From contig NZ_WQNH01000018.1 of NCBI RefSeq assembly GCF_009812055.1, positions 1 to 64,000 on the forward strand: a stretch of DNA of 64,000 nucleotides. The letters run 5' to 3'. The notes beneath the pieces were generated by a model, which saw nothing but the letters and a program-made list of their open reading frames with translations, made no database searches and was not told the DNA's origin. Positions 38,013 to 56,750 of this stretch are shown here, piece by piece (the first letter of the stretch is position 1; the number at the start of each line of letters is the position of its first letter). A program made the position numbers and the translations under genes. This DNA is from Chelativorans xinjiangensis. GTDB lineage: Bacteria > Pseudomonadota > Alphaproteobacteria > Rhizobiales > Rhizobiaceae.

Positions 38013-38912
38013 TCACGCCCGGTCCAGCCCAGCGGCCCTGGCCGCGGTCTGGAGTGCCTTCAGCCCCATGGACTGGTACTTCACCGGGTCGGCCTTCAGC
38101 GGATCCTGCTCGGCCTCGATGACCAGCCAGCCGTCATAGCCGTGCTCGGCGGCGATCTTCAGCACCGGTTCGAAGTCGAGCGCCCCTTCCGGGTCGCCGG
38201 GCACGGTGAAGACGCCACGGCGTACGCCTTCAAGGAAGGAAAGGCCCTCCTCCTCCACCTGCTTCTTGATCGCGGGGCGGACGTTCTTGGCGTGGAAGTG
38301 ACGCACCCGGTCCATATAGGCACGGGCGAGCTCCACCGGGTCGGCGCCGCCGAACCAGGCGTGGCCGACGTCGAGGAGGAGCCTCGTCGCCGGCCCCGTA
38401 CCGGCCATCAGGCGGCCGATCTCCTGGCGGGTCTCAACGATCGTCCCCATGTGATGATGGTAGACGAGGTCGATCCCTTGGCTCGCGCAATATTCGGCGA
38501 CGGCTTCGACACCGGCGCAGAATTCCGGCCAATCCTCCTCGGCCAGTACCGGCTTGTCCTTGAGCGCGACGGCATCATTGCCGTGGATGGCGTTGGAGGT
38601 CTCGCAGACGATGCAGACTTGGCAAGCATTCGCCTTCAGCATGTCGAGATGCGGCTGGATGGCGCGCTTTTCCGTCTCTATGTCGTTGACGAGCAGGTTC
38701 AGGGAGTGCCAGCCGGAGATGAAGAGGAGGCCGTGGGCGGCCAGCACTTGTCTCAGCGCATCGCCGTCGGAGGGCATCTTGTGGCCCTTCTCGATGCCGG
38801 AAAAGCCGATCGCGGCGGCCTCGCGCAGGCACTGCTCCAGCGGGATGTGGGCGCCTATTTCCTGGTCGTCGTCGTTGGACCAGGCGATGGGGTTGGTGCC
38901 GTAGCGGATCAT
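38013..38912 (-). CDS. iolE: myo-Inosose-2 dehydratase
   Basis: Dehydrates 2-keto-myo-inositol to 3D-trihydroxycyclohexane-dione, second step of inositol breakdown. A 299-residue TIM barrel: start [46 protein letters not shown] and [18 protein letters not shown] with metal-binding His and Asp residues, and [15 protein letters not shown] near the end. Its start is directly behind the iolD stop (38912/38913). Normal length. Confidence 0.95.
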
Positions 38913-40736: not shown

Positions 40737-42649
40737 GCGGCCCTCCCATGTTTGGCCCGCGCGCGGTCCCACACCGCGCACAGGGCCCGATATTTCTCTG
40801 TCATCGTGGCGACGGCCTCCCGGTCGCCGATCTCGCCGGCGAGCCACTGGCGCGCGGCGTCGGCGAAGATGGTGCGGCCGACGGCGAAGCCTTTCACAAG
40901 ATCGAAGCCGGCTGCAACCGCAAAACTCTCCTCAAGCTCGGCGGCCGGCGCGTCAAGCCCCAGGACGACGATGCCGCGCGTATAGGGGTCGTTGCGGGTG
41001 ATGGCGCCGCAGGCATTTTTCCACGCCTTCCCGGACGTCATCGGCTCCAGCTTCCACCAGTCGGGATAGACGCCGATCTCGTAGAAGCGTCCGATGACGG
41101 CGGCGGCGGTCTCATCGTCGACGGGGCGTACCTTGGAGGGGATGACCTCCAGAAGCATCTCCAGCCCGTTGCGGCGGCTGGCGGCGAAGAGCCTCTTGAC
41201 CACGTCCTCCTGGCGCGCCTTCACCTCCGCGCCGTCGTCGGGGTGGTAGAAGCACAGGACCTTCACCACGTGCTCCAGCGGCCATTCAACGACGCCGCCG
41301 AAATCCAGCCCGATCTCCGGCTCCAGCCTGAGCGGCCGGGAACCCGGCCATTCGACCGGCCGGCCGATCCACAGGCCGCTGCCGGCCGCCCGGTAGAGCG
41401 CCTCGCGGCCATGCCGGCCATCGCAGAGGATGCCGTAGCCGTGCTTGCCGCCGGACACCTGGCGCGCGGCCTCCAAGCATAGCACCTTGAACGCGCCGAT
41501 ACGCTCATGCGGGGCGCCGGCGCTGTCGGCCATTTCCTCGAGCTGCATGCGGTGGTCGAAGGCAAAGACGCGCATGTCCTGCCAGTCGCCCTTGCGGTTG
41601 GTCGACCAGTGGACCTGCTCCAAGTCCGCATCCTTGCGCAGGGCGCGGTCCTTTATGCCGGTGCGGAAGAAATATTGCAGCTCCTCCCAGGAGGGATAGG
41701 CCGGCGTGCAGCCGTGGCGGGAGACGGCGAAGGCGCCGCAGGCGTTGGCTATCTTCAGCGTCGTCGACCAATCCTCGCCGGTGAGCCAGCCCTTCAAGAG
41801 CCCGGCCATGAAGCCGTCACCGGCGCCCAGAACGTTGAAGACCTCGATGGGGAATCCCTCCCCCGCCTCGCCCTCGTCGAGCGTGTCGGGGATGTCGCCG
41901 GCGAAGGCGGAGGCGCCCATCGGCCCGCGCTTGCACACCAGCACGGCGTCGGTGAGGCCGCGCACGGCGCGCAGGGCTTCGATGGTGTCGGTGGAGCCGC
42001 CGGCGATGTGGAACTCTTCCTCCGTGCCGACGATCAGGTCGAAGAGCGGGAGCGTCTTCTGGAGCTTGGCGGTCACCCGCTCGGATTCGATGAAGCGGCT
42101 TTCGCCCGCGCCATGGCCGGCGAGGCCCCAGAGATTGGGGCGGTAATCGATGTCGAGCGCCGTTCTGGCGCCGCTCTCGCGCGCCAGCTCCAATGCCTTC
42201 AGGACCGCGGCCTCCGTGCGCGGGTGCGACAGGTGTGTGCCGGTAGCGCACACGCAGCCCGCCTCGGCGATGAAGGCGGCGTCGATGTCGTCCTCGTCGA
42301 GCGCCATGTCGGCGCAGTTCTCGCGGTAGAAGATGAGCGGGAACTGCTCCTGGTCGCGGATGCCCAAGAGCACGAGCGCGGTCAGCCGCTCGGGATCGGT
42401 CTTCACGCCCCGCACGTCGACGCCCTCGCGCTCCAGCTCCTCGCGGATGAAGCGGCCCATGTGCTCATCGCCGACGCGCGTGATCAGCGCCGACTTCAGC
42501 CCCAGGCGGGCCGCACCCGCGGCGATGTTGGTGGGCGAGCCACCGATATATTTGTTGAAGGAGGCCATGTCCTCCAGCCGCCCGCCGACCTGCGCTCCGT
42601 AGAGATCGACCGACGAACGGCCGATGGTGATGACGTCGAGGGGCTTCAT
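40733..42649 (-). CDS. iolC: 5-dehydro-2-deoxygluconokinase fused to DUF2090 aldolase-like domain
   Basis: A 638-residue fusion. Residues about 1-325 are a PfkB kinase (DVITIGRSSVDLYGAQVGG at the start, GAGDGFMAGLLKGW with the catalytic Asp) that phosphorylates 2-deoxy-5-keto-gluconate. Residues about 330-638 are a DUF2090 domain (MRVFAFDHRMQLEEMAD, WWKLEPM) of TIM-barrel aldolase type, often fused to IolC in proteobacteria and thought to cleave the phosphorylated product. This explains the absence of a separate iolJ. The ATG at 42649 has GGGAGGAG upstream; an upstream start at 42718 lies in repeat DNA. Confidence 0.94.
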   Translation of the reverse strand: MKPLDVITIGRSSVDLYGAQVGGRLEDMASFNKYIGGSPTNIAAGAARLGLKSALITRVGDEHMGRFIREELEREGVDVRGVKTDPERLTALVLLGIRDQEQFPLIFYRENCADMALDEDDIDAAFIAEAGCVCATGTHLSHPRTEAAVLKALELARESGARTALDIDYRPNLWGLAGHGAGESRFIESERVTAKLQKTLPLFDLIVGTEEEFHIAGGSTDTIEALRAVRGLTDAVLVCKRGPMGASAFAGDIPDTLDEGEAGEGFPIEVFNVLGAGDGFMAGLLKGWLTGEDWSTTLKIANACGAFAVSRHGCTPAYPSWEELQYFFRTGIKDRALRKDADLEQVHWSTNRKGDWQDMRVFAFDHRMQLEEMADSAGAPHERIGAFKVLCLEAARQVSGGKHGYGILCDGRHGREALYRAAGSGLWIGRPVEWPGSRPLRLEPEIGLDFGGVVEWPLEHVVKVLCFYHPDDGAEVKARQEDVVKRLFAASRRNGLEMLLEVIPSKVRPVDDETAAAVIGRFYEIGVYPDWWKLEPMTSGKAWKNACGAITRNDPYTRGIVVLGLDAPAAELEESFAVAAGFDLVKGFAVGRTIFADAARQWLAGEIGDREAVATMTEKYRALCAVWDRARAKHGRAA

Positions 42650-42712
42650 CAACTCACTCCTCCCTGATCGATGCGCGTTCCAGCGGGCCTCCGGGCGCCG
42701 CAACATACCCAC

Positions 42713-42862
42713 CGTCATCCCGGAAAGCTTGAGCGAAGCGAAGGCTTGTCCGGGATCTATTCCGTGACGTTTACGCTCCGGCCCGCTTCGCCGAAGCTTC
42801 AGCGAGGCGAGAATGGGTCCCGGACAGCCTTCGCCCTACGAGCTTCAGCTTCCGGGATGACG
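42713..42862. repeat. 150-bp palindromic intergenic repeat, copy 2 (opposite orientation)
   Basis: CGTCATCCCGGA (42713-42724) and TCCGGGATGACG (42851-42862) are the ends. Its reverse complement aligns along the whole length with the copy at 37820-37987, including the inner TGTCCGGGACCCATTCTCGC. It lies between the iolR stop and the iolC start, thus within the iolC leader. Confidence 0.88.
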
Positions 42863-42915: not shown

Positions 42916-43749
42916 TCACGGAATTCCATTTTTCCGGGCACGGTTGGCCGTGCCCACGGCGACGACTAGCGCCACGGCGAGCGAAAGTGTTGCCGAAAGC
43001 GAGCGGAAATCGCCGAAATCGGCTTCAGAGACGGTGAGCAGGAGCGGCGTAACCGGCCGCAAGGGGCTTGCCAGCGAATCGGTGATAGCCACCACCTTGG
43101 CGCCGGCGCGCGAGCCGGCTTCCGCCAGCGCCACCGTCTCCGGCGAATAGGGGGCGAAGGTGATGGCGATCACGGCATCGCCGGCGCGGATGGCATGGCG
43201 GCTGTCGAGCTTGCCGACGCTGTCATGCAGCATGGTCGGCACGTTCATCTTCTCGAAGGCGTAGGCGAGATAGGAGGCGACGGAGAAGGCGCGGCGCATG
43301 CCGACAATGTGCACCATGTTCGCCTCCGACAGTGCCTTGATGGCCGCGTCGAGCGTGCGCGGGTCGAGCGTCTTGGCGAGATTTTCGAGCGACAGCCGCC
43401 CCGCCTCGACGAACTCGGCGAGGAGCGCCGAAGGACTGCCGGCCCCGCTCTCGCGCAGTTTCTCCAGGCGGGTCGCATAGTCGGGCCAGTTCTGCGCGTA
43501 GGAATCGCGGAACAGGCGCTGCATCTGCGAGAAGCCGGAGAAGCCCAAAACCTGGCAGAAACGCATGAAGGCCGACGGTTGGACGCCGGCCCCCTCGGAC
43601 ATCTCGGCCACGGTGGAGACGGCGACGCGGTCGGGATTGGCCGCCACATAGTCGGCGCACTGTTTGAGCCGTTTCGGCAGGCCGTCCGAAACCTCGAGGA
43701 CGCGGTCGAGCAGCTCCTCTACACTTGCCGGGGCCGAACGTGCATCCAT
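42916..43749 (-). CDS. iolR: RpiR/MurR-type regulator, IolR
   Basis: Probable repressor of inositol genes. The 277-residue protein has an N-terminal RpiR helix-turn-helix domain (about 1-80, VSTVAEMSEGAGVQPSAFMR) and a C-terminal SIS sugar-phosphate-binding domain (NMVHIVGMRRAFSVASYLAY, then AITFAPYSPETVALAEAGSR). I use the ATG at 43749, giving MDARSAPASVEELLDRV; a longer frame to 43866 would run through the palindromes upstream. Those palindromes and a GGAA-N6-TTCC box lie just before the gene, suggesting autoregulation. IolR in S. meliloti belongs to the same family. Confidence 0.9.
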   Translation of the reverse strand: MDARSAPASVEELLDRVLEVSDGLPKRLKQCADYVAANPDRVAVSTVAEMSEGAGVQPSAFMRFCQVLGFSGFSQMQRLFRDSYAQNWPDYATRLEKLRESGAGSPSALLAEFVEAGRLSLENLAKTLDPRTLDAAIKALSEANMVHIVGMRRAFSVASYLAYAFEKMNVPTMLHDSVGKLDSRHAIRAGDAVIAITFAPYSPETVALAEAGSRAGAKVVAITDSLASPLRPVTPLLLTVSEADFGDFRSLSATLSLAVALVVAVGTANRARKNGIP

Positions 43750-43765
43750 GTGTCGTCTTTCCGTC

Positions 43766-43887
43766 CTAGTGGTCTGACCCAAACAGATGATGCCCATCTG
43801 TTTGGAAAAGTCAGCCCACAAGCTATTAATCTGGTGGGGCGATTTGTCCTGACAGATGGGTACCATCTGTCAGGATCGCACCACTAG
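43766..43887. promoter_or_regulatory. iolR upstream region with two matched palindromes and outer inverted repeat
   Basis: Palindrome A (43779-43805) has arms CCAAACAGATG / CATCTGTTTGG; palindrome B (43847-43875) has arms TCCTGACAGATGG / CCATCTGTCAGGA. Both contain the core ACAGATG-N5-CATCTGT. An outer inverted repeat CTAGTGGT (43766-43773) / ACCACTAG (43880-43887) encloses them. They lie 30-126 bases before the iolR ATG and look like a double operator; the enclosed unit could alternatively be a small mobile repeat. Confidence 0.65.
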
Positions 43888-43942: not shown

Positions 43943-44947
43943 CTACCCCAGCACCTCCGCCACCTTCACGCTCCGTCCCTCCTTCAGCGAGCGGTAGGCC
44001 GCGTCGGCCAGCGCCAGCGCCTTCAGCCCGTCCTCGCCGGAGGGAGACGCCGTCCTGCCACCCCCTATCGCATCGATGAACGCCGCCATCTCGGCCGCAT
44101 AGGCCTCGGTATAGCGGGTCATGAAGAAGTCGTGCAGCGGCGGTCTCGTGAAGCCCTCGCCCGTGGCGATCTCTATCGACACCGGCCGCTGGTTCTCCGC
44201 CGAGACCGCGCCTTTTTCACCCAGCACCTCGATGCGCTGGTCGTAGCCGTAGGTTGCACGGCGCGAGTTGGAGATGGAGCATTGCCGACCCGACGCCGTG
44301 GCGAGCACCACCGACACGCTGTCATGGTCGCCCAATTCGCCAATCTCCGGGTCGACCAGAACGGAGCCGACGGCATAGACCGTCTCCGGCTCCTCGCCCA
44401 GGAGGAACCGCGCCATGTCGAAGTCGTGGATCGTCATGTCGCGCAGGATGCCGCCCGAGGAACGGATATAGGCGGCCGGCGGCGGGCCGGGGTCGCGCGA
44501 TGTGATCTGCACCATCTCGACCTTGCCGATCCTGCCTTCGTCGATAGCCGCGCGCACGGCTGAAAAATGCGGGTCGAACCGGCGGTTGAAGCCGACCATG
44601 AGGGTAGTGCCGGTCTCCTCCACCACCTTCAGGCAGGCCTTCACGCGGGCGAGATCGAGGTCGATGGGCTTCTCGCAGAAGACCGCCTTGCCGGCGCGAG
44701 CGAAGCGCTCGATCAGGTCGGCGTGGGTGTCGGTGGGCGTGCAGATCACCACCGCGTCGATGTCGGAAGCCGCCTCGATCTCCTCTACCGTGCGCACAGC
44801 GCAACCATAGGCATCGGCTACGGCGTTGGCCGCCTCGGCAAAGGCGTCCGCCACCGCCACAAGTTGTGCATCCGCATTGCCGGAGATGGCGCGGGCGTGG
44901 ACCTTGCCGATGCGCCCGGCGCCGAGAAGACCGAATTTCACTGTCAT
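43943..44947 (-). CDS. idhA: Inositol 2-dehydrogenase (Gfo/Idh/MocA family)
   Basis: NAD-dependent oxidation of myo-inositol to 2-keto-myo-inositol, first step of the pathway. It has 334 residues: FGLLGAGRIGKVHARAI at the N-terminus, AVFCEKPIDLD with the catalytic Lys, and GGILRDMTIHDFDMARFL with the Asp-x-x-x-His pair. The ATG at 44947 gives the conserved start MTVKFGLLGAG; the frame is open further upstream but that part is antisense-like and overlaps the SDR gene. Name iolG is equally valid; idhA is the rhizobial usage. Confidence 0.94.
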   Translation of the reverse strand: MTVKFGLLGAGRIGKVHARAISGNADAQLVAVADAFAEAANAVADAYGCAVRTVEEIEAASDIDAVVICTPTDTHADLIERFARAGKAVFCEKPIDLDLARVKACLKVVEETGTTLMVGFNRRFDPHFSAVRAAIDEGRIGKVEMVQITSRDPGPPPAAYIRSSGGILRDMTIHDFDMARFLLGEEPETVYAVGSVLVDPEIGELGDHDSVSVVLATASGRQCSISNSRRATYGYDQRIEVLGEKGAVSAENQRPVSIEIATGEGFTRPPLHDFFMTRYTEAYAAEMAAFIDAIGGGRTASPSGEDGLKALALADAAYRSLKEGRSVKVAEVLG

Positions 44948-45000
44948 TTCCGTTGTCTTTCGCTGTTTGGAAGGTTGCTCTTTTCGGCTTCGCAACGGGC

Positions 45001-45780
45001 CTACTCGGGATAGGCCCCGGCCACATTCTGGTCGCAGTCGATGATGGCCCCCGTCATGACGCCCGACCGCGGCGACAGAAGATAGCTCGCAAGCGGCGCG
45101 ACTTCGGCCGGCTTGACGAGCTGGCCGAAGGGCTGTTTGGCCTCGGCCTCGGTCAGCCAGTCGTCCGAGGCTCCGTGAAACCGCTTCTGGGTGGTGTCCT
45201 CGCCGGGCGTGTCCATCCAGCCACAGGCGATCGCGTTGCAGCGGATGCGGTCGCGGCGGTGTGCCTGGGCGGTATTCCTGGTGATGTTGGCGAGCGCCGC
45301 CTTGGAGGCGGAATAGGGCGCCAGATAGGACTGCCCACAATGGATGACCATAGACACGATATTGACGATGGAGGCCGGCAGGCGATGCTCTAACGCCTGC
45401 CTGACGAAAGCCTGCATGGTGAAGAAGGGACCGCGCGCGTTGACCTCCATGAGTTTCGTCCAGATCTCGGGCGTGGTGTCGAGCAGCGAGCCCCGGTCGC
45501 AACTGGCGGCGGCGTTCACAAGGGCATTGGGCGGCCCGATCAGCCGGCCCGCCTCGGCGATTACCGCGTGGCAATCTTCGATATTGCCGAGGTCGGCGGC
45601 CACGAAATGCGCCTCACAGCCAAGGGCCGCAAGCTCCGCCGCCGCGGCCCGACCCTTTTCGCTATCGCGCCCGGAGAGAACGAGCCGCTGGCATCCCTCT
45701 TCCAGAAGTTGCCGGGCAATGGCGGAGCCAAGCCCCTGTGTGCCTCCGACGATGACGGCGCGTGTGTCTCTGTTCTGCAT
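45001..45780 (-). CDS. Short-chain dehydrogenase (SDR) in the inositol cluster
   Basis: A 259-residue classical SDR: AVIVGGTQGLGSAIARQL, ALVNAAASCDRGSL, catalytic Ser in VNIVSMVIHCGQ and Tyr-Lys in [15 protein letters not shown], and the C-terminal SPRSGVMTGAIIDCDQNV. Position between the ABC importer and idhA suggests a dehydrogenase for an inositol isomer, a methylated inositol or a derived ketone. The exact substrate is unknown. The ribosome site is weak. Confidence 0.85.
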   Translation of the reverse strand: MQNRDTRAVIVGGTQGLGSAIARQLLEEGCQRLVLSGRDSEKGRAAAAELAALGCEAHFVAADLGNIEDCHAVIAEAGRLIGPPNALVNAAASCDRGSLLDTTPEIWTKLMEVNARGPFFTMQAFVRQALEHRLPASIVNIVSMVIHCGQSYLAPYSASKAALANITRNTAQAHRRDRIRCNAIACGWMDTPGEDTTQKRFHGASDDWLTEAEAKQPFGQLVKPAEVAPLASYLLSPRSGVMTGAIIDCDQNVAGAYPE

Positions 45781-45843: not shown

Positions 45844-46623
45844 TCAGATATAGCTGGCGTTCTCGTGCACGCCGGTCTTCACGCCGGTGATCAGCGAGAC
45901 GACCTCGTTGCCGTCGGTCTTGTCGGCCTCCAGCATGCCGGCGATCTTGCCGCGGCGGAAGACCCAGATCTTGTCGACCAGGTTGAAGACCTGCCGCAGA
46001 TTGTGGCTGACGAGGATCAACGGAATGCCCTGTTTCTTCAGGCCGCGGATGATGTTCTCGACCTGCGTCGTCTCCTGCACGCCTAGGGCGGCCGTCGGCT
46101 CGTCCATGATGATGAGCTTTGAAGCGAAGCTGGCGGCGCGCGAGATGGCCACGCACTGGCGCTGGCCCCCTGACATGTTGGCGATGTTGTTGCGCAGGTT
46201 TGGGATCTTCACGCCCGTCCGCTCCAGCGCCTCCATCGATCTTTTGTACATCTTCTTCTCGTTCAGGAAGCTGAAGGGCCCGAGGTTGAAATAGGTCTCC
46301 TCGCGGCCAAGGAAGATGTTGGACGGCACGTCGAGATCATCGGCGAGCGCCAGGTTCTGGAACACCGCCTCGATGCCGACATCGCGGGCGTCGATGGGGC
46401 TGGTGAAGTGAACCTCCTTGCCGTCGAAAAAGACCTTGCCCGCCGTCGGCTGCTCGACGCCGGTGATCTGGCGCACGAAGGTGGACTTGCCGGCGCCGTT
46501 GTCGCCGACGATGGCCACGTGCTCGCCTTCGTGGAGGGTGAAATCGGCATCCTCGAGCGCGTGCACGCCGCCGTAATATTTGGTCAGACCTTCGGTCTTC
46601 AGGACAATGCCGTCATTCGCCAT
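45844..46623 (-). CDS. Sugar/inositol ABC importer, ATP-binding protein (single domain)
   Basis: A 259-residue ATPase with VAIVGDNGAGKSTFVRQITG (Walker A), NMSGGQRQCVAISRAASF (signature) and KLIIMDEPTAAL (Walker B). Related RbsA proteins have two ATPase domains in about 500 residues; this one has one, like the FrcA type of rhizobia, and would work as a homodimer. The ATG has AGGAGG at good distance. It energises uptake together with the permease (46724-47767) and binding protein (47868-48812). Confidence 0.9.
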   Translation of the reverse strand: MANDGIVLKTEGLTKYYGGVHALEDADFTLHEGEHVAIVGDNGAGKSTFVRQITGVEQPTAGKVFFDGKEVHFTSPIDARDVGIEAVFQNLALADDLDVPSNIFLGREETYFNLGPFSFLNEKKMYKRSMEALERTGVKIPNLRNNIANMSGGQRQCVAISRAASFASKLIIMDEPTAALGVQETTQVENIIRGLKKQGIPLILVSHNLRQVFNLVDKIWVFRRGKIAGMLEADKTDGNEVVSLITGVKTGVHENASYI

Positions 46624-46637: not shown

Positions 46638-46726
46638 TAGATCACGATGCCTTTTCGTTGAATCGGCATCATGATCTATCTCTTTGTTTGAGCCTGATCT
46701 TTCCCACTTTTCGGGATCATGCTCTA
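46638..46726. repeat. Intergenic repeat with 14-bp hairpin, contains the permease stop codon
   Basis: TAGATCACGATGCC (46638-46651) pairs with GGCATCATGATCTA (46665-46678), one mismatch, followed by CCCACTTTTCGGGATCATGC and CTAG. The final CTA is the complement of the TAG stop of the permease gene. The same plan (hairpin, then a TTTCCACTTTTC-like part, then CTAG at a stop codon) is seen at 56751-56854. Confidence 0.75.
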
Positions 46727-47767
46727 GCGCGCACCTGTGCGGTATCTCTGGCGGTACACGTCGGCCACCACGGCGGCGACGATGATCGCGCCCATGATCA
46801 TCTCCTGGTAGTAGGCGCTCAGCCTCAGGAAGGTGAAGCCGGAGATGATGACGCCGAAGATTGCCGCGCCGATGACCGTGCCGACGATCGAGCCGCGGCC
46901 GCCCGAGAGCGACACGCCGCCGATGACTGCCATGGCAATCGCCTGCAATTCGTACATGACGCCCATGCCGGCCTGTGCGGTGAGGCCGCGGGAGGCGATC
47001 ACGATGCCGGCGAGCGCGGCGAGAACGCCCGCGATGGAATAGACCAGGATCAGGTGCCGCTCGACGCTGATGCCGGAAACCCTTGCCGCACTCTCGTTGG
47101 AGCCGATGGCATAGGTGTGCTTGCCGTAGACGGTGTATTTCAGCGCGACGTGGAAGAGCAGGGCAATCGCCAGGAAAATGACGACCGGCGTCATGCCTTG
47201 GCCGATGGCGGCGAAACTGTCGGTGGGGAAGGAGACCGGCTGGCCCCGCGTGTACCACTTGGCAGCTCCGCGCGCGGTGACCATCATCCCGAGTGTGGCG
47301 ATGAAGGGCGGAATCCGCGTATAGGCGATCAGCGCGCCGTTGATGAACCCCGCCGCCAGCCCGACACCCAGCCCGATAAGCACGGGAATGACGACCGGCA
47401 GGTCCGTCAGGTTGGGATAGACAGCGCGCGGATAGGTGCCGACCTGGGCGAAACTCATGGCGACCATGGCCGTCAGGCCGACGATGGAGCCCGATGAGAG
47501 GTCGATGCCGCCGGTTATGATCACCTGCGTTACCCCGATGGCGATAATGCCCACCACCGCGACCTGGAGGATGATGATGCTGAGGCGCTGGGTGTTGAAC
47601 AGGAAGCTCTGCCCCTGGAAAATCCAGCCGAGAATCTCGAAGATGAGCGCGATGCCGACAAGCCCGATGAGCGCATTCAGCTCATGAGAGCGCTGCCGTT
47701 TTCCGCCTTCAACGGTCGCCGCCGCGGCAACCGGTTCCGCCTGATTTGTCACCGTTCTTTCCGCCAT
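46724..47767 (-). CDS. Sugar/inositol ABC importer, permease (RbsC/FrcC type)
   Basis: A 347-residue membrane protein with eight to ten helices and the family segment VTQVIITGGIDLSSGSIVGL, plus ALAGIVIASRGLTAQAGMG and GGRGSIVGTVIGAAIFGV. I prefer the ATG at 47767 because the GGAGG lies at the right distance from it and too close to the ATG at 47776. Its TAG stop is part of a dispersed repeat. It partners with the single-domain ATPase and the binding protein. Confidence 0.9.
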   Translation of the reverse strand: MAERTVTNQAEPVAAAATVEGGKRQRSHELNALIGLVGIALIFEILGWIFQGQSFLFNTQRLSIIILQVAVVGIIAIGVTQVIITGGIDLSSGSIVGLTAMVAMSFAQVGTYPRAVYPNLTDLPVVIPVLIGLGVGLAAGFINGALIAYTRIPPFIATLGMMVTARGAAKWYTRGQPVSFPTDSFAAIGQGMTPVVIFLAIALLFHVALKYTVYGKHTYAIGSNESAARVSGISVERHLILVYSIAGVLAALAGIVIASRGLTAQAGMGVMYELQAIAMAVIGGVSLSGGRGSIVGTVIGAAIFGVIISGFTFLRLSAYYQEMIMGAIIVAAVVADVYRQRYRTGAR

Positions 47768-47867
47768 GACGGCCATACCTCCCTTGGCGGGCGCACCGGC
47801 CTTAAGCCGGCCGCCGTCTGGTCGTCGGGCGGGGTCAGGCCCGCCCGACGGCTCAAGCCCATGCGTG

Positions 47868-48812
47868 TCAGTTCATGCTCGTGAACTTTTCCATGTTCTC
47901 GGGCGTGACGAGCTGGAAGGGAATATACACCTTCTGGTCGACCTCTTCACCGCGCACGAGCTTCAGCGCCGTGTCGACCGCGCCCTTGCCTTGACCCGCC
48001 GCGTCCTGGAACACGGTCACGTCGAGATCGCCGGCGGCCATGGCGGCCAGCGCATCCTGGGTGGCATCGACGCCGCCGACCAGCATCTCGTCCATGGAAA
48101 TGCCGGCTGTCTTCATGGCCTGGATAGCGCCGATGGCCATCTCGTCATTGTTGGAGACGAGGGCATCGAACTCGAGCCCGGCCGACAGCCAGTTGGTCAT
48201 AAGGTCGGCGGCTTCCGTGCGCTGCCAATTGGCCGTCTGCTCCTCGACGATCTCCATGAAGGAACACTCCTCCGTGGCGATGACGTCGTGGACGTCCTGG
48301 GTGCGCTGGCGGGCGGCCTGGTTGGACAATTCGCCCATCATGACGACGATCTTGGCGCCGTCGCCCTTGCCCTGCTCCTTCAGGAGGCGGCAGATCTCCT
48401 GCGTCTCCAAGGTGCCGGACTCGCGCTCGTCGGAAGCCACGAAGGCCTGGTTCTCGGGCAGATCATCGACATTCACCGGCTCGCGGTTGACGTAGACCAG
48501 CACCACGCCGGCATCGGCCGCCGCCTTGGTCATGGCGACCGTGGCGTCGGTGTCGACCGGGTTGACGATCACCGCGTCGACGCCGGAGGCGATGAAGTTC
48601 TGGATCTGGTTGAGCTGCTTGCCGACGTCGTTCTGCGCGTCCTCGACCTGCAATTCCACATCGCCGAGCTCGTCGGCGTAGTCCTGCATGCCGTTGCGCA
48701 GCACGGTGAGGAAGTTGTCGTCGAACAGCGCCATGGTGACGCCGATCGTTTCGGCAAAGGCCGACGTCGTCATCAGCGCTGAAACGGCAACGCCCAGCAA
48801 AAGCTTTTTCAT
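47868..48812 (-). CDS. Periplasmic inositol-type substrate-binding protein (RbsB/IbpA/MocB-like)
   Basis: A 314-residue periplasmic protein with a signal peptide (MKKLLLGVAVSALMTTSAFA, cleavage before ETIGV) and the type I periplasmic-binding fold: VDAVIVNPVDTDATVAMTKA, VLVYVNREPV, VSNNDEMAIGAIQAMKTAGI and AAMAAGDLDVTVFQDA. The Asn-Arg-Glu-Pro segment is typical of inositol-binding members. Its context next to idhA and iolI supports an inositol or methyl-inositol ligand; rhizopine-binding MocB belongs to the same family. GGAGGAG precedes the ATG. Confidence 0.88.
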   Translation of the reverse strand: MKKLLLGVAVSALMTTSAFAETIGVTMALFDDNFLTVLRNGMQDYADELGDVELQVEDAQNDVGKQLNQIQNFIASGVDAVIVNPVDTDATVAMTKAAADAGVVLVYVNREPVNVDDLPENQAFVASDERESGTLETQEICRLLKEQGKGDGAKIVVMMGELSNQAARQRTQDVHDVIATEECSFMEIVEEQTANWQRTEAADLMTNWLSAGLEFDALVSNNDEMAIGAIQAMKTAGISMDEMLVGGVDATQDALAAMAAGDLDVTVFQDAAGQGKGAVDTALKLVRGEEVDQKVYIPFQLVTPENMEKFTSMN

Positions 48813-48981
48813 CAGATTGCTCCTCCACACGATGGGTGTCCGGTAGCACCCCTTTTTGGCCGGAAATCCCCTTAGCGGGAATCCTTGCGAGCATTTCCTG
48901 TGGCTTCAACCGGGAGCGCGGGGCATTCCGCGCCTCCTCCCTCCCGGAAAATAGAACATCGCCACCGTTCTTTTCTCGATA

Positions 48982-49041: not shown

Positions 49042-49875
49042 TCATGCCGCCTGGCGGCGCGAACGCGCCGAGACATGGGCGATGCTGCGGGCGAGCGCGG
49101 CGCCGAGGTCGGGCAGCTCGTGCACGATCTGCGAAAAGGGCTCGAAGGACAGCGGCCCGTCATACCCGGCTGAGAGAAGCGCTGCGATCTGGCCGGTATT
49201 GTCGAGCCGGTCGTGTTCATCGACGAGGACGCGGTGACCATCGCGCATCTCAGCCGTGGCAATGGCGCCGTCGGTGACGCCGGAGATGTGCACGAGGCCG
49301 GTATGGGCCGCAAAAAGCGCCGTCTCGCCGGCCAGATGGTGATGGAACGTATCATGGACGATGCGGAAGGCGCCGCTGGCGCCGAGCGCCTCGATCGCCT
49401 CCACCGCCTCGGACTTGTAGCGCAGGGAGGAGGTCTCGAAGCCGAGCGGCTCCACCAGGCCGACGATCCCGGCTTCGGCGAGGATCGGCCGCAGCGCCTT
49501 CAACGCGATGCGCAGGTTTGCCTGACGCTCGCCGTTTGCCCGGCCCGTGCCGTCATTGGCGGGCACAAGCACCAGGGCCTCCGCTCCGCACGCCTTCGCA
49601 TAAGCGACGAGCGCGCGGGCCTCTTCCTCGCGCGCCTCGCCCCAGGCGTTGAAGCGCTGCAGCGCATTGATGGAGATGACGCGCAGGCCGCGGGCGGTGG
49701 CAGCCTCGGCAATCGCCGCCGGCTCCGTGCCGTCGGCAATGGCATTGCCGTCGATATCGTTGCGGATTTCGACGCCCACCGCACCGATTGCCCTCGCCAG
49801 ATCGAAGAAGGCGGAAATGGAAAGGCCAGCTGCGCACATGTGGTTGAGCGCGAAAGCGGGGCTGTCTGCCGTCAT
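49042..49875 (-). CDS. iolI: TIM-barrel isomerase, 2-keto-myo-inositol isomerase-like (IolI type)
   Basis: A 277-residue sugar-phosphate isomerase/epimerase-family protein. It has FALNHMCAAGLSISAFFDLA at the start, GAVGVEIRNDIDGN, VGLVEPLGFETSSLR and RIVHDTFHHHLAGE with metal-binding residues, and GPLSFEPFSQIVHEL near the end. IolI interconverts keto-inositols, letting other isomers enter the pathway. MocC-type proteins of rhizopine clusters share the fold, so that role is possible. AAGGAGGA precedes the ATG. Confidence 0.75.
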   Translation of the reverse strand: MTADSPAFALNHMCAAGLSISAFFDLARAIGAVGVEIRNDIDGNAIADGTEPAAIAEAATARGLRVISINALQRFNAWGEAREEEARALVAYAKACGAEALVLVPANDGTGRANGERQANLRIALKALRPILAEAGIVGLVEPLGFETSSLRYKSEAVEAIEALGASGAFRIVHDTFHHHLAGETALFAAHTGLVHISGVTDGAIATAEMRDGHRVLVDEHDRLDNTGQIAALLSAGYDGPLSFEPFSQIVHELPDLGAALARSIAHVSARSRRQAA

Positions 49876-50055: not shown

Positions 50056-51087
50056 TCATATGCTTTCCGGCACATGCAACGCCGGCGTCAGGAAAAGCTG
50101 GCCCGGGGTCTCCGACGGCCCTTCGCGCACCGCGCTTGCCATGTGGTCCAGCAGCGCGCGGCAAAGGGCGGGAAGCGGCGTGGCGATGGCGGCGACGATC
50201 TGGTGATCCTGAAGGGCGGCGGCCGAATCCTGCGTCAGTTCGTTGACGACGACCGAGGGCATCGGATCCGGCGGCTCGTCGCGGAGCGCCGCGATGGCGC
50301 CCTCCATGCCGCCGCCGGCGACGTAGAAGCCGACGATGTCGGGGTACCGGTCCATAAGGTTCAGCGTCGCCTCGTAGGTGACTTGCCGGGTCTCCAGATT
50401 GACCAGCGTCTCCAGGATCTCGAATTGCGGCGCATATTCGCGAAAGTAGCTGCGGAAGCCGGTTTCACGCAGTTCGTGCCCGTGCCAGCGGTGGCTGCCG
50501 ACGAAGACCGCCACCTTGCCGGGGCGCGGCGCGGTGCGCGAGATGAGCCAGGCGGCCATGCGCCCGACCTTGAGATTGTTCAAGCCCACATAGCTTTCGC
50601 GCACTCCTTGGGCGAAATCCGACAGCAGCGAGAAGACGGGCTTGCCCTCGGCCCTCAATGCCTCCACGGCCTGCGTCACGGTGTGATGGTCAAGACTGGT
50701 GGCGGCGATCGCCTGCGCGCGCTGGCCAAGCGCCTCCAGCCGCTCCGCCACCTCCGCCGGCGTCTGGTTTTTCACATACTCGATATGCGCGTTGACGCGC
50801 ACGCCGGTTGTCGCCTCGGCCGCCTCCTGCAGGGCCTTGCCAAAGGCCTGGTAGAAAGGCTGTGCCTCCTTCTGCAGGAGGAAGGCGAAGTTCATCCTCG
50901 GCAGGTCGGCGGTGATGCGCTGGTGGATGAGGGCGGCGGCGTGATAGCCGATCTCGCTCGCCGCCTCGTAGACACGGCGCGCCGTCTCCTCGCGGACGCG
51001 GTGGCGGCCGTTCAGAACCCGGTCGACGGTGGCAACGCTGACGCCGGCCTTTCTTGCCAGATCGGCGATGGTCGGACGCCGGCCCAT
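50056..51087 (-). CDS. LacI-family regulator of the inositol/demethylase region
   Basis: A 343-residue regulator: N-terminal helix-turn-helix TIADLARKAGVSVATVDRVL and hinge, then a periplasmic-binding-type effector domain. Its VDRVLNG (instead of VSRVLN) is typical of the RbsB-like-effector branch common in rhizobial inositol clusters. It is divergent from the oxygenase gene (51224) across 136 bases of AT-rich DNA with TGATA/TATCA repeats, and upstream of iolI on its own strand. It likely senses the imported substrate (inference). Confidence 0.87.
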   Translation of the reverse strand: MGRRPTIADLARKAGVSVATVDRVLNGRHRVREETARRVYEAASEIGYHAAALIHQRITADLPRMNFAFLLQKEAQPFYQAFGKALQEAAEATTGVRVNAHIEYVKNQTPAEVAERLEALGQRAQAIAATSLDHHTVTQAVEALRAEGKPVFSLLSDFAQGVRESYVGLNNLKVGRMAAWLISRTAPRPGKVAVFVGSHRWHGHELRETGFRSYFREYAPQFEILETLVNLETRQVTYEATLNLMDRYPDIVGFYVAGGGMEGAIAALRDEPPDPMPSVVVNELTQDSAAALQDHQIVAAIATPLPALCRALLDHMASAVREGPSETPGQLFLTPALHVPESI

Positions 51088-51100
51088 CGAAACCTCCCCT

Positions 51101-51150
51101 TGATAATGATCTATCAGGAAATCTAATCATTATTTGATAGAAAATGATAG
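51101..51150. promoter_or_regulatory. Candidate operators between lacI-type gene and oxygenase operon
   Basis: TGATAATGATCTATCA (51101-51116) is a TGATA/TATCA inverted repeat; TGATAG recurs at 51135-51140 and 51145-51150, and CTATCA at 51111-51116 mirrors them. Dense clustering in a divergent promoter region. Confidence 0.45.
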
Positions 51151-51223
51151 AAAAAATTGCACGCTGCTTGAGGACTCCCAAGCCTGTGCGTAGCATCAGG
51201 GCCATCGGAGGAGGTGCATAGAG

Positions 51224-52300
51224 ATGGCCAAACGCGACTACAGCCTTATCGGACCGAATGCCAGCCGCGCCGTCGAGACCGGCCTTGCCTCGGCCGAGTG
51301 GTATCACACGGACATCTCCCGCAAGGAGATGAAGGCGCTGATGAAGCGCAGCGACGGGCCGGCCATCCGCGATACCATCGTCTGGCTCGGCGGCATGGCG
51401 GCCTTTGCCGGCGCGGCCGCATGGCTGTGGCCGTCCCTCTGGTCGATCCCCTTCTTCCTTGCCTATGGCGTGCTCTACGGCTCGGCCGGCGATTCCCGCT
51501 GGCACGAATGCGGCCACGGCACCGCGTTCAAGACGCGCTGGATGAACGACGCCGTCTACCAGATCGCCTCCTTCACCATGATGCGCAACCCGGTGACCTG
51601 GCGCTGGAGCCACGCGCGGCACCACACCGACACCATCATCGTCGGCCGCGACCCGGAGATCGTCGTCATGCGGCCGCCGGACCTTCTGCGCCTGGCGCTC
51701 AACTTCTTCGGCATTCTCGACGTTTGGCACGCCGTCATCGACATGGCGCGCAACGCCGCGGGCATCATCAGCGCCGAGGAGAAGACCTTCGTTCCAGAAC
51801 AGGAGCAGCCGAAGGCGATCTTCGTGGCCCGCATCTGGGTGGCGATCTACGCCGCAACAGCCGCGGCCGCGGTCTACACCGGGTCCATCCTGCCGTTCCT
51901 CCTCATTGGCGGTCCGCGCCTTTATGGCGCCTGGCACCATGTGATGACGGGGCTTCTGCAGCATGGCGGGCTCGCGGAGGACGTGACCGACCATCGGCTC
52001 AACAGCCGCACGGTCCATATGAACCCGGTCAGCCGCTTCATCTATTGGAACATGAACTACCACGTGGAGCACCACATGTTCCCCATGGTGCCCTATCACG
52101 CGCTGCCGAAGCTGCATGAAATGATCAAGCACGACCTGCCGGCGCCGAACACGTCGATCCTCGACGGCTACCGCGAGATGTTCCCGGCGTTCCTGCGGCA
52201 GCTGCGCTACGAGGACTACTTCATCAAGCGCGAATTGCCGCCGACGGCGAAGCCCTACCGGGCCGAATTCCACGACGTGGCGCCGCAGGCAGCCGAATAA
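51224..52300 (+). CDS. Desaturase-fold di-iron oxygenase, MocD-like
   Basis: A 358-residue integral-membrane di-iron protein of the fatty-acid-desaturase fold. The three histidine boxes are present: HECGH near residue 96, HARHH near 132 and HVEHH near 284, with four hydrophobic helices between. The order desaturase, Rieske ferredoxin, ferredoxin reductase equals mocD-mocE-mocF of Rhizobium leguminosarum, where it is needed for rhizopine (3-O-methyl-scyllo-inosamine) use and is thought to remove the methyl group. Context beside iol genes supports an O-demethylase for methylated inositols; a lipid substrate cannot be excluded. GGAGGAGG precedes the ATG. Confidence 0.82.
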   Translation: MAKRDYSLIGPNASRAVETGLASAEWYHTDISRKEMKALMKRSDGPAIRDTIVWLGGMAAFAGAAAWLWPSLWSIPFFLAYGVLYGSAGDSRWHECGHGTAFKTRWMNDAVYQIASFTMMRNPVTWRWSHARHHTDTIIVGRDPEIVVMRPPDLLRLALNFFGILDVWHAVIDMARNAAGIISAEEKTFVPEQEQPKAIFVARIWVAIYAATAAAAVYTGSILPFLLIGGPRLYGAWHHVMTGLLQHGGLAEDVTDHRLNSRTVHMNPVSRFIYWNMNYHVEHHMFPMVPYHALPKLHEMIKHDLPAPNTSILDGYREMFPAFLRQLRYEDYFIKRELPPTAKPYRAEFHDVAPQAAE

Positions 52301-52323
52301 ACCGCAACCAAGGGAGGCAAGAC

Positions 52324-52638
52324 ATGTCCGAATGGGTGGACGCGTGCGCCGTCGACGACGTGGAGGAGGAAGACCTGATCCGCTTCGACCACGACGGAAA
52401 GACCTTCGCCATCTATCGCAGCCCGGATGACGATTTCTTCGCCACGGATGGGATCTGCACGCACGAGCATGCGCTTCTCGCAGATGGGCTGGTGATGGAC
52501 TACATCATCGAGTGCCCGAAGCATAACGGCCGCTTCGACTACCGCACGGGCGAGGCCAAGGGCGCCCCGGTCTGCGTCAACCTGAAGACCTATCCCGTCA
52601 AGGTCGAGGACGGCCGCGTCTTCATCGACGTGGCGTGA
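52324..52638 (+). CDS. Rieske-type [2Fe-2S] ferredoxin, MocE-like
   Basis: A 104-residue soluble Rieske ferredoxin with the two cluster motifs CTHEH (residues about 43-47) and CPKHNGRFD (about 62-70), and the usual beta-rich end. It transfers electrons from the reductase to the oxygenase. It lies 23 bases behind the oxygenase gene with AGGGAGG before its ATG, and its stop overlaps a possible GTG start of the reductase. Length is normal for MocE/NirD-like ferredoxins. Confidence 0.9.
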   Translation: MSEWVDACAVDDVEEEDLIRFDHDGKTFAIYRSPDDDFFATDGICTHEHALLADGLVMDYIIECPKHNGRFDYRTGEAKGAPVCVNLKTYPVKVEDGRVFIDVA

Positions 52639-52643
52639 ACGCG

Positions 52644-53837
52644 ATGAGCGACATCCTCATCATCGGCGCCGGCGAATGCGGCGTGCGCGCCGCCTTCGCG
52701 CTGCGCGAGGCGGGGCACGAGGGCGGTATCGCGCTCATTGGCGCGGAGCCCCACCTGCCCTACGAGCGCCCGCCCCTTTCCAAGACCGCGCCGACGGCGC
52801 CGAAGATCATCGCCGAGGAGGCAGGCTACGTGGAGGCCGGAATCGCACTGATGCGCTGCAGCCGCGTGGAGAGCATCAACCGCGCGGAACGGCGTGTGCG
52901 GCTTTCAGACGGCAGCGCCCTCCCCTATAAAAAGCTCCTGATCGCCACCGGGGCGCGGGCGCGCCGCTTTCCGGGCATGGAGGCGGCACGCACCTTGCGC
53001 AGCCTCGATGACGCGCGCGGCATTCTTGACGCGCTCGGACCGGGCCTCAGGCTCGCCATCATCGGCGGCGGCTTCATCGGCCTCGAGCTTGCCGCCACCG
53101 CGCGCAAGCTGGGCACCGAGGTCACCCTGGTGGAGGCGGCGGAGCGGCTGATGGCGCGCATCGTGCCGGCGGAGATCGCCGAAGCGATGGCCGGGCGACA
53201 CAGGGCGGAGGGTGCCCGACTGATCCTCGGTACGGGTGTGGCCGAGGTGCGCACCAACGGCATCACCCTTGCCGACGGGCGTATTATCGAGGCGGATATG
53301 GTGGTGGCCGGCGTCGGCGCGGAGCCGGAGACGCGGCTTGCCGCTGAGGCCGGGCTCGAGGTCGCCAACGGCATCGTCGTCGACGGTCGGCTCGCCACCA
53401 GCGATCCTCACATCTTCGCCGCCGGCGACTGCTGCTCCTTCCCATTCAACGGCGCGCGCGTGCGGTTGGAAAGCTGGCGCTGTGCGCAGGACCAGGGCGC
53501 GCATGCCGCCCGCGCCATGCTCGGCTGCGAGGAGGCCTACGCCCGCGTGCCGTGGTTCTGGTCGGATCAGTACGACCTGACTTTGCAGGTGGCGGGGCTG
53601 CCCGATCCATCGCTCGGCCATGTCCGCCGCGATCTCGGCGGCGGCGCCTTCATCCTGTTCCAGCGCGACGATGCCGGCCGCCTCGTCTCGGCCAGCGGGG
53701 TGGGGAGCGGCAATGCCGTCGCCAAGGACATCAGGCTTGCCGAGATGATCATGGAAAAGGGCCTCAGGCCGGACCCCACGCAGCTGAAGGACCCGGCGGT
53801 CAATTTGAAAACGGTTTTGAAAGGGGTGCCGGCATGA
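52644..53837 (+). CDS. FAD-dependent ferredoxin reductase, MocF-like
   Basis: About 397 residues, class of bacterial-oxygenase-coupled NADH:ferredoxin reductases. The FAD motif LIIGAGECGVRAAFALREAG is at the N-terminus, the NAD motif LAIIGGGFIGLELAATARKL near 140-160, and the FAD-binding FAAGDCCSF near 260. The C-terminal dimerisation-type domain includes WFWSDQYDLTLQVAGLP. I list the ATG at 52644; a GTG at 52635 overlapping the ferredoxin stop is also possible. Its stop overlaps the next ATG (53834-53837), so the operon continues. Confidence 0.9.
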   Translation: MSDILIIGAGECGVRAAFALREAGHEGGIALIGAEPHLPYERPPLSKTAPTAPKIIAEEAGYVEAGIALMRCSRVESINRAERRVRLSDGSALPYKKLLIATGARARRFPGMEAARTLRSLDDARGILDALGPGLRLAIIGGGFIGLELAATARKLGTEVTLVEAAERLMARIVPAEIAEAMAGRHRAEGARLILGTGVAEVRTNGITLADGRIIEADMVVAGVGAEPETRLAAEAGLEVANGIVVDGRLATSDPHIFAAGDCCSFPFNGARVRLESWRCAQDQGAHAARAMLGCEEAYARVPWFWSDQYDLTLQVAGLPDPSLGHVRRDLGGGAFILFQRDDAGRLVSASGVGSGNAVAKDIRLAEMIMEKGLRPDPTQLKDPAVNLKTVLKGVPA

Positions 53838-54637
53838 AGAGGCCGAACAGAAAGACCATTGCCGACTTGCGCGCGCTGCGCGGCCGGCGCCAGCTCGCCA
53901 TGCTGCGCGTGGAAACGTTGGAAGAGGCCGAGGCCGCCGAGCGGGCGGAGATCGACATGGTGTCGGTGCCGCCTTCCCTGATGCTCGACCCCGCCTTCCG
54001 GGATGCCGCGCCCACGGTCTTCGCCGTCCCCGGCGACAACTTCTTCGAGATCGGCACGGCAGAGGATTTCATCCGTTGGGCCTTCCGCCTCTATAAGGCG
54101 GGAGCGGACGCGGTCTACTGCTCGGCCGGCACGGAGACCGTACGTCGGCTCGCCGGGGAAGGCATTCCCGTGTGCGGCCATGTCGGTCTCATCCCCTCCA
54201 AGGCCACATGGACGGGTGGCTTCAAGGCTGTGGGCAAGACGTTCGAGACGGCCCAGCTCGTCTGGAAGCAGGTCAAGGCGCTGGAGGAGGCCGGAGCGTT
54301 TGCGGCGGAGATCGAGGTGGTGCCGGAGGCGATCGCCAGCGAGATTTCCAGGCGCACCAGCCTCTTCATGATCTCGATGGGCGCCGGCGCCGGCTGCGAT
54401 GCGCAGTACCTCTTCTCCGACGATGTGCTGGGCGCCAATAGGGGCCACGTGCCGCGGCATGCCAGGACCTACCGCAACTTCGCCGCCGAGTACGCCCGCC
54501 TGCAGGCGGAGCGCATCGGCGCCTATCGCGAGTTCGCCGACGATGTGCGCTCAGGCACCTACCCGCAGGCCGGGCACAAGGTCGAGGCGGACGGGGAGAC
54601 GGTTTCCCGCTTCCGCGATTGGCTGGAGGCGCAATAG
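53834..54637 (+). CDS. PanB-like hydroxymethyltransferase-fold protein
   Basis: A 267-residue protein related to ketopantoate hydroxymethyltransferase. The C-terminal half keeps the PanB pattern: GIPVCGHVGLIPSKATWTGG, FAAEIEVVPEAIASEI with the catalytic-type Glu, and MGAGAGCDAQYLFSDDVLG. By eye the N-terminal metal and substrate residues differ: the Thr-Ala-Tyr-Asp and Lys-x-Glu-Gly motifs of true PanB are not found (ADAVYCSAGTE stands at the second). Tightly coupled to the reductase gene and followed by purU, it may bind formaldehyde released by demethylation onto a folate or another acceptor (inference) rather than make ketopantoate. Confidence 0.75.
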   Translation: MKRPNRKTIADLRALRGRRQLAMLRVETLEEAEAAERAEIDMVSVPPSLMLDPAFRDAAPTVFAVPGDNFFEIGTAEDFIRWAFRLYKAGADAVYCSAGTETVRRLAGEGIPVCGHVGLIPSKATWTGGFKAVGKTFETAQLVWKQVKALEEAGAFAAEIEVVPEAIASEISRRTSLFMISMGAGAGCDAQYLFSDDVLGANRGHVPRHARTYRNFAAEYARLQAERIGAYREFADDVRSGTYPQAGHKVEADGETVSRFRDWLEAQ

Positions 54638-54687
54638 GGGATAAATACCCTGAACCCTCATCTTCCAGCACCTGCCGAGACCAGCCC

Positions 54688-55548
54688 ATGAGCGAAAATA
54701 CCTTCGACATCAATCTCTCCTGCGAGGACCGTCCGGGCATCGTCGCCGCGGTGACCACGGAGCTTGCCGCCCTCGGCGCCAACATCGCCGAGTCCAACCA
54801 GTTCTGGGACCGGCAGACCAACCGCTTCTTCATGCGCATCTCGTTTACCGCGCCCGATGGCGTGGACCGTGATGCGATTGCCCGCGCGCTGGAGCCGGCC
54901 GTCGCCCGCTTCGACATGAAGACGGCGCTCGCCAATCGCTCGCGGCAACCGAAGATCGTCATCATGGTCTCGAAATTCGACCACGCGCTTCTCCACCTCC
55001 TCTACCAGATCCGCGTGGGCTGGCTAGACGCCGAGGTGGTTGCCATCGTCTCCAACCACGAGGATTCGCGGGCGACGGCGGAGGCGGAGGGCATCCCCTA
55101 TCACCACTGGCCCGTGACCAGGGAGAACAAGGCCGAGCAGGAGGAAAGGTTGCTTGCGCTGGTGAAGGAGACGGGCGCCGACCTCGTCATCCTCGCCCGC
55201 TATATGCAGGTGCTCTCCAACGCGCTATCGAACCGGCTCTTCGGCAAGATCATCAACATCCACCACTCCTTCCTGCCGAGCTTCAAGGGGGCGAAGCCCT
55301 ACCACCAGGCGTACGAGCGCGGGGTGAAGCTCATCGGCGCCACGGCGCACTACGTGACGCCGGACCTCGACGAGGGGCCGATCATCGAGCAGGAGACGGA
55401 ACGGGTGACGCATGCCATGAGCGCGGAGGATTTCGTGGCGGCGGGGCGGGATATCGAAAGCCGGGTGCTGGCGCGGGCGGTGAAGCTGCACCTGGAAAGC
55501 CGGGTGATGCTCAACGGGCACAAGACGGTGGTGTTTTCGAAGGGTTGA
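54688..55548 (+). CDS. purU: Formyltetrahydrofolate deformylase
   Basis: Hydrolyses 10-formyl-tetrahydrofolate to formate and tetrahydrofolate. A 286-residue protein with an N-terminal ACT domain (INLSCEDRPGIVAAVTTEL) and a C-terminal formyltransferase-type domain: IINIHHSFLPSFKGAKPYHQ with the catalytic Asn and His, and THYVTPDLDEGPII-like ATAHYVTPDLDEGP with the Asp. I chose the ATG at 54688 (MSENTFDINLS). purU copies near demethylation genes release tetrahydrofolate when methyl-derived one-carbon units accumulate. It ends the operon that begins at 51224. Confidence 0.93.
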   Translation: MSENTFDINLSCEDRPGIVAAVTTELAALGANIAESNQFWDRQTNRFFMRISFTAPDGVDRDAIARALEPAVARFDMKTALANRSRQPKIVIMVSKFDHALLHLLYQIRVGWLDAEVVAIVSNHEDSRATAEAEGIPYHHWPVTRENKAEQEERLLALVKETGADLVILARYMQVLSNALSNRLFGKIINIHHSFLPSFKGAKPYHQAYERGVKLIGATAHYVTPDLDEGPIIEQETERVTHAMSAEDFVAAGRDIESRVLARAVKLHLESRVMLNGHKTVVFSKG

Positions 55549-56726: not shown

Positions 56727-56750
56727 GATCTCTCTACTCCAGTGAATTTT

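Follow-up and report, generated by a model that had tools for sequence, protein, structure and literature searches.

The question raised by this locus is what an oxygenase of the MocDEF type does beside inositol (iol) genes, and where the carbon that it would release goes. The window, 64,000 nucleotides of contig NZ_WQNH01000018.1 from Chelativorans xinjiangensis (genome size, 5.69 Mb), contains a plus-strand operon of mocD, mocE, mocF, a panB-like gene, and purU. An original prediction, made from the nucleotide sequence alone, held that this operon strips methyl groups from O-methyl-inositols or rhizopine and routes the carbon to formate. We find that it places the known mocDEF system under a LacI regulator and joins to it a one-carbon (C1) set of PanB-like protein and PurU, which the passages on mocDEF in PMC10107442, PMC5132102, PMC5789663, and PMC3538637 do not mention. 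A LacI-controlled O-methyl-inositol pathway probably explains the locus, and our best single guess for the substrate is D-pinitol (3-O-methyl-D-chiro-inositol).

Position, strand, and family assignments bear out the predicted architecture (Table 1). From mocD to purU the spacings are 23 bp, a 4-bp overlap, a 4-bp overlap, and 50 bp, which makes a single tight operon; it is divergent from a lacI gene and near an iolI-like gene, an importer, and iol genes, and IolB, IolC, IolD, IolE, and IolG all exceed their NCBIfam equivalog cutoffs. The iolI-like gene matched no NCBIfam family, its nearest solved chains being 4hgx and 2q02. MocD carries the histidine motifs HECGH, HARHH, and HVEHH at residues 97, 133, and 283, and shares its operon with a MocE-family ferredoxin and an NAD(P)H reductase, the three parts of a MocDEF complex. 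No solved relative of MocD was found by sequence at an E value of 0.01. The nearest named MocD, at 90%, comes from Chelativorans intermedius, and relatives with 79 to 80% identity sit in LacI/iol loci.

We propose that the CUT2 importer would take up an O-methyl-inositol and that electrons would flow from MocF through MocE to MocD, which would hydroxylate the O-methyl group; the resulting hemiacetal would break into free inositol and formaldehyde. IolG would oxidize the ring, the IolI-like barrel would convert the keto-inositol where needed, and IolE, IolD, IolB, and IolC would continue. Formaldehyde would be bound to tetrahydrofolate (THF), with or without the help of the PanB-like protein, FolD would oxidize methylene-THF (CH2-THF) to 10-formyl-THF, and PurU would release formate and free the THF. 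It is from the iol genes, the importer, and the IolI-like gene that we infer an O-methyl-inositol substrate. Bacillus IolI links myo- and D-chiro-inososes, and the IolI-like gene therefore favors pinitol.

Published exudate data fit such a substrate. As described in sections of PMC5789663, pinitol dominates Mimosa root exudate (145 μM, versus 0.73 μM inositol), and in Rhizobium mesoamericanum the mocDEF homologs are upregulated 1.5- to 2.1-fold and a mocB-like transporter 4- to 4.7-fold, with iolB, iolC, iolA, and idhA likewise induced. Excerpts of PMC8730688 describe pinitol and ononitol as abundant in legume nodules, and those of PMC4738288 report growth of pine-beetle bacteria on pinitol, with genes not given. 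A rhizopine biosensor was tested with pinitol and ononitol, and the activators reported in the relevant passage are scyllo-inosamine and L-3-O-methyl-scyllo-inosamine (PMC6668481); this concerns MocR, not LacI.

Markers were counted within 7 kb of mocD in the 80 nearest MocD loci, all locus counts in this work being taken without kinship correction. MocE was present in all 80, LacI (divergent) and MocF in 78 each, any iol-type gene in 70, IolI in 60, the PanB-like gene in 55, any CUT2 gene in 37, IolG in 22, PurU in 20, and FolD in 7. For a broader set, 80 neighborhoods were drawn from genomes across the order and the phylum and 76 were counted; L163 and L164 (MocD E value above 1e-60) were omitted, and 2 of the remaining 78 had no MocD marker above the threshold. 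Here the counts were 60 for MocE, 57 for LacI, 37 each for CUT2 and PanB-like genes, 31 for MocF, 24 for any iol gene, and 3 for PurU; by genus, iol genes occurred in 11 of 30 and PanB-like genes in 12 of 30. MocD places left out comprised G598, the second piece of a split gene in G264, and matches weaker than about 1e-50. In 20 control stretches of 19 kb, taken at round coordinates from relatives' genomes, moc, PanB-like, PurU, LacI, and iol markers were absent and one CUT2 ATPase was found, so the clustering of these genes exceeds chance. We conclude from the two sets of counts that sugar- or polyol-type loci with MocDE form a wider family, the iol form of which surrounds the window. The predicted tie of O-demethylation to inositol use and one-carbon disposal is supported by these conserved neighborhoods.

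Of 159 loci, 19 have the exact order MocD-MocE-MocF-PanB-like-PurU on one strand: 18 belong to the 80 nearest, none to the 78 broader ones, and the last is the plasmid locus L090. Iol-type genes lie in the fetched stretch of 15 of the 19, and the remaining four (L027, L043, L073, and L080) carry the LacI operator at 12/14 positions; the order is thus not found mostly apart from iol genes. All five genes within 7 kb in any order occur in 20 of 156 loci, 16 of which have iol genes. The expected co-occurrence with iol genes holds for the exact-order loci and is weaker at large (24 of 76 broader loci).

The five-gene order is shared by two MocR-type rhizopine loci. L090, on a plasmid of Rhizobium indicum, holds IolE-like and Gfo/Idh genes, a binding protein, a pyridoxal phosphate-dependent (MocR-type) regulator, mocDEF, the panB-like gene, and purU; L020, from R. 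bangladeshense, has the same markers and is classed as MocR-type on that basis. Two moc-box-like 11-mers 13 bp apart precede mocD in each (8902 and 8926 in L090; 9897 and 9921 in L020), the paired layout of 11-bp repeats 13 bp apart that the moc-box passages of PMC10107442 give. Isolated moc-box matches arise often by chance, with 14 and 16 expected per locus, and so it is the pair and its position that carry the weight. We take this to mean that the PanB-like protein and PurU also travel with a known demethylation system.

This kinship is also the case for rhizopine (3-O-methyl-scyllo-inosamine), the substrate of the classic moc system, as the substrate in the window: a quick tree of 112 rows places the two MocR-type MocDs inside the same wider MocD group, paired with the iol-type row L005 (support, 92). 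Compared with the mocDEF of rhizopine catabolism in Rhizobium leguminosarum and Sinorhizobium meliloti, the window is alike in the MocD, MocE, and MocF families, in their order, and in an inositol-type ring that would pass to the Iol enzymes. It differs in having LacI and its TGATAGA palindrome instead of MocR and moc-boxes, the LacI form being that of most relatives, and an IolI-like gene and an importer in a divergent operon. None of 53 moc-box matches in the window falls in the LacI-MocD gap (51088 to 51223), and no MocR-like or aminotransferase gene was found among the 28 open reading frames (ORFs) that were profile-scanned, all within 33 to 64 kb. A plain methyl-inositol therefore fits better than an inosamine, as originally predicted, and rhizopine becomes an improbable substrate here. 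If the substrate were instead another O-methylated polyol or sugar, the iol genes would be mere neighbors. Of the 76 broader loci, 57 have LacI and 37 have CUT2 genes, against 24 with iol genes, and DUF4432, Gfo/Idh, and TIM-barrel genes accompany one MocD subgroup; on the other side stand the iol-type gene within 7 kb in the window and in 70 of the 80 nearest loci, the occurrence of the same operator at 29 sites before IolI-like genes and at 7 before CUT2 binding proteins, and the best solved relative of the window binding protein, 4yo7, which we take to hold myo-inositol. We regard this alternative as unlikely. That MocD is a lipid desaturase or hydroxylase in an operon for membrane lipids is very improbable and was rejected: the Pfam name FA_desaturase suggests it, as do four related loci in which MocDEF adjoins acyl-CoA genes, but MocD scores far below the NCBIfam DesB cutoff (30.5 versus 500 bits) and most loci have sugar-type importers and regulators.

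Several points nevertheless weigh against an O-methyl-inositol pathway. To our knowledge, demethylation by MocDEF has not been demonstrated with purified proteins. Just 24 of the 76 broader loci have iol genes within 7 kb, the five-gene order is absent from all 78, and MocDE(F) is also found with other CUT2, Gfo/Idh, and DUF4432 sets; in L153 to L156, acyl-CoA dehydrogenase and CoA-transferase genes follow MocDEF. PurU is near mocD in 23 of 156 loci and is therefore optional. The window operator is weak when taken alone (2 matches in the window, 0.79 expected). The genome also has Fhs, a glutathione-type formaldehyde dehydrogenase, and a second PurU-like gene, so that other exits exist. The exudates were mixtures (fructose, 110 μM; gluconate, 114 μM), and the passages concerned have the authors inferring rhizopine use (PMC5789663).

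Identity of the fourth gene product as plain PanB was rejected, since it scores below both NCBIfam PanB cutoffs (131 versus 272 and 107.8 versus 207.55 bits) and has lost the metal-site residues; a separate full PanB is present in the genome. The residues in question are the metal-site Asp, Asp, and Glu and the substrate Lys of PanB (ketopantoate hydroxymethyltransferase), which we take to be D45, D84, E114, and K112 in E. coli numbering. All four are kept in 10 of 10 PanB proteins, whereas among 120 PanB-like rows, which include the window protein twice, the first Asp is found in 2, the second Asp and the Glu in none, and the Lys in 1; the window protein has none of them. What the family shares with PanB is the fold family by sequence (PF02548) and an invariant His (window H116) and Glu (window E161), retained in 120 of 120 rows. 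Because the metal-site residues are missing, the part of the prediction that sent the carbon through this protein is unlikely to be right if taken as hydroxymethyl transfer.

The PanB-like family, labeled as pantothenate genes in public annotation, keeps company with oxygenases. Among 347 genomes of the order it occurs in 35 (E value of ≤1e-45) and MocD in 53 (E value up to about 1e-50), with both in 32; these stricter cutoffs kept 53 of 57 MocD genomes and 35 of 40 PanB-like genomes. At PanB-like places away from MocD (18 fetched; five weak ones, G007, G035, G146, G147:C1, and G314, omitted), a PF04116-type hydroxylase lies in the stretch in 10 and MocE in 10. This hydroxylase was assigned by BLAST to cluster 116, was checked against Pfam for L179 and L091, and is more than 7 kb away in L190 and L191. 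L091 (8980 to 14269, on a plasmid of Rhizobium sp. AB2/73) contains LacI, the PanB-like protein, the PF04116 hydroxylase, MocE, a MocF-like protein, PurU, and FolD, with no MocD. In L194 (8983 to 10991) the panB-like gene abuts a gene for a Rieske oxygenase that among NCBIfam families matches GbcA best, though far below the cutoff (123.5 versus 670), and L180, a 3-kb contig, has it with MocE; six of the 18 places have no recognized oxygenase. A partner common to different oxygenases, with no single ring chemistry among them, points to their common product, formaldehyde, as what this family would act on.

The proposed route to formate needs a FolD step between CH2-THF and PurU, and some loci have folD within the operon itself. 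FolD, a family named from L076, follows or neighbors PurU in eight loci (L017, L034, L045, L076, L091, L021, L020, and L090); its frames in the MocR-type loci (L020:14658-15242 and L090:13548-13973) are short of the usual 300 residues. Of the 92 MocD loci that have a PanB-like gene, 22 have PurU or FolD nearby, as against 1 of the 64 that lack it (Fisher P = 5e-5, kinship ignored). According to PMC7073904, formaldehyde and THF are calculated to join only very slowly in cells when left to react spontaneously; an enzyme that sped up this reaction would thus fill a genuine gap. The PanB-like protein is a candidate for this task, binding formaldehyde to a C1 carrier, as is done by the formaldehyde-activating enzyme Fae. 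Fae is methanopterin dependent and unrelated to the PanB-like family. Glycine betaine demethylation, with a GbcA-type Rieske protein and folate-linked C1 oxidation, also couples an oxygenase demethylation to THF-linked disposal, and in L194 a panB-like gene adjoins that of the GbcA-like protein; the window differs in its desaturase-fold diiron oxygenase and inositol-type neighborhood. The second PurU-like gene of the genome (G000:C24:63199-64025) is 50% identical and is split over two frames in the assembly.

A serious rival, to which we give somewhat less than an even chance, is that the PanB-like protein plays no role in dealing with formaldehyde and acts as an aldolase-like enzyme on the ring or a sugar acid, while formaldehyde exits by the glutathione route. 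The glutathione-type dehydrogenase in the genome would provide that exit, 38 of the 76 broader MocD loci have neither a PanB-like gene nor PurU/FolD within 7 kb, six PanB-like loci are without a recognized oxygenase, and one PurU locus (L137) is without a PanB-like gene. Against this rival stands the excess of PurU/FolD at loci with a PanB-like gene (22 of 92, versus 1 of 64), and the three oxygenase types that have this common partner offer no obvious common ring chemistry.

The LacI-MocD gap is marked by a palindrome, TGATAGA-N(1-2)-TCTATCA. The word TCTATCA/TGATAGA occurs in 107 of 130 such gaps (2.2 expected), and the palindrome, at 12 or more of 14 positions, in 105 of 130 compared with 2 of 650 shuffles; the gaps counted here also served to derive the operator, and shuffling was base by base. 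Of the other sites this good, 29 precede IolI-like genes, 7 precede CUT2 binding protein genes, and 10 have no marker nearby. No second operator with three or fewer mismatches precedes the window iolI-like gene, the single nearby match being inside the gene.

The regulator has a relative with another task. According to passages of PMC3538637, the LacI-family protein FixV activates nifA2 in Mesorhizobium loti, its inducer is left open ("possibly an inositol derivative"), and it is about 60% identical to LacI proteins encoded beside mocDEF. The window LacI is a homolog of the latter. In L255 and L256, which look like the same element and are counted once, genes for a FixV-like LacI (54% identical to the window LacI) and an IolI-like protein share a stretch with nifA (frame 12431 to 13546 in L255; TIGR01817, 552.8 versus 528.85 bits). 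A perfect palindrome, TGATAGAATTCTATCA, at L255:12132-12147, and also in L256, precedes the nifA frame by about 300 bp; the LacI and IolI-like genes have a site with two mismatches between them. In these genomes the perfect 16-mer occurs only at that position before nifA, and a search allowing two mismatches gives a total of two or three sites; the perfect 16-mer was found in 0 of 151 other genomes of the family. With about 7.5 kb between lacI and nifA, the arrangement is not the one published for fixV and nifA2, and the window LacI, unlike FixV, is placed with catabolic genes. We propose the palindrome as a DNA site common to the FixV-type LacI group, with a 12/14 copy in the window.

A broader proposal, which we put forward tentatively and as less likely than not, goes further. 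The PanB-like protein, having retained the PanB fold and the invariant His and Glu while losing the metal/keto-acid site, would be a dedicated C1 enzyme of oxidative demethylases, serving at least two diiron families and perhaps Rieske proteins, and would join formaldehyde to THF for FolD and PurU as a folate counterpart of Fae. The module LacI would sense O-methyl-inositols, and FixV would have inherited both ligand and operator, so that pinitol or ononitol in the nodule would activate nitrogen fixation in symbioses of the Lotus type.

Demethylation genes would matter because pinitol and ononitol are plentiful in nodules (passages of PMC8730688) and pinitol leads in Mimosa exudate (sections of PMC5789663). 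The literature searched, with most subscription papers outside its scope, names no bacterial gene set for removing their methyl groups. A family annotated as pantothenate genes gains a candidate formaldehyde-THF function, and FixV, whose inducer the passages of PMC3538637 leave open, gains a proposed DNA site and ligand class. If the pathway is as proposed, this soil bacterium uses plant O-methylated inositols such as pinitol, and an overlooked companion protein may aid in clearing toxic formaldehyde.

Table 1. Genes and sites of the MocDEF/iol region in the window, with the match or score on which each assignment rests
Feature	Coordinates	Strand	Evidence
MocD-type membrane diiron oxygenase (fatty-acid-desaturase fold), proposed O-demethylase	51224..52300	+	PF00487, 123.5 bits vs cutoff 29.7
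MocE Rieske-type [2Fe-2S] ferredoxin	52324..52638	+	TIGR02377 "MocE family," 180.5 vs 136.15 bits
MocF-type NAD(P)H:ferredoxin reductase	52635..53837	+	PF07992, PF14759; start GTG 52635 or ATG 52644
PanB-like protein, proposed formaldehyde/folate enzyme	53834..54637	+	PF02548, profile positions 91-258 only
PurU, formyltetrahydrofolate deformylase	54688..55548	+	TIGR00655 equivalog, 335.9 vs 285.95 bits
Proposed LacI operator TGATAATGATCTATCA	51101..51116		12/14 half-site positions
LacI-family regulator	50056..51087	-	PF00356, PF13407
IolI-like TIM barrel (Msi119-type), proposed inosose isomerase	49042..49875	-	PF01261; 4hgx and 2q02, E ~4e-38
CUT2-type periplasmic binding protein	47868..48830	-	Best solved relative 4yo7, E 1e-61
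CUT2-type permease	46724..47776	-	Profile scan
CUT2-type ATPase	45844..46623	-	Profile scan
SDR oxidoreductase	45001..45780	-	NF004847, above cutoff
IolG inositol 2-dehydrogenase	43943..44950	-	TIGR04380, 434.4 vs 355 bits; 4hkt, E 3e-163
RpiR-family regulator (IolR-type by position)	42916..43866	-	Weak HexR/MurR matches, none above cutoff
IolC-aldolase fusion	40733..42718	-	NF047869
IolD	38913..40847	-	TIGR04377
IolE	38013..38912	-	TIGR04379
IolB	36733..37548	-	TIGR04378

Other forms of the MocD neighborhood were also seen. Eleven loci (within L113 to L125, plus L129) have MocD with DUF4432 (PF14486), Gfo/Idh, and CUT2 genes and may encode a demethylase for another sugar or polyol. In L086, L157, L159, L160, L172 to L175, L177, and L178, the gene for a cluster-33 protein follows mocF in the slot of the panB-like gene; that of L172 is a weak PF01261 match, which may be compared with the xylose-isomerase-like gene (xylA2-like) described in passages of PMC5132102 as adjoining mocDEF in Pseudomonas syringae of woody hosts. 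Downstream of the operon, the window (55719 to 63336) encodes an aldose epimerase, a second LacI, a CUT1 sugar importer, and a TIM-barrel protein, which make up another sugar locus.

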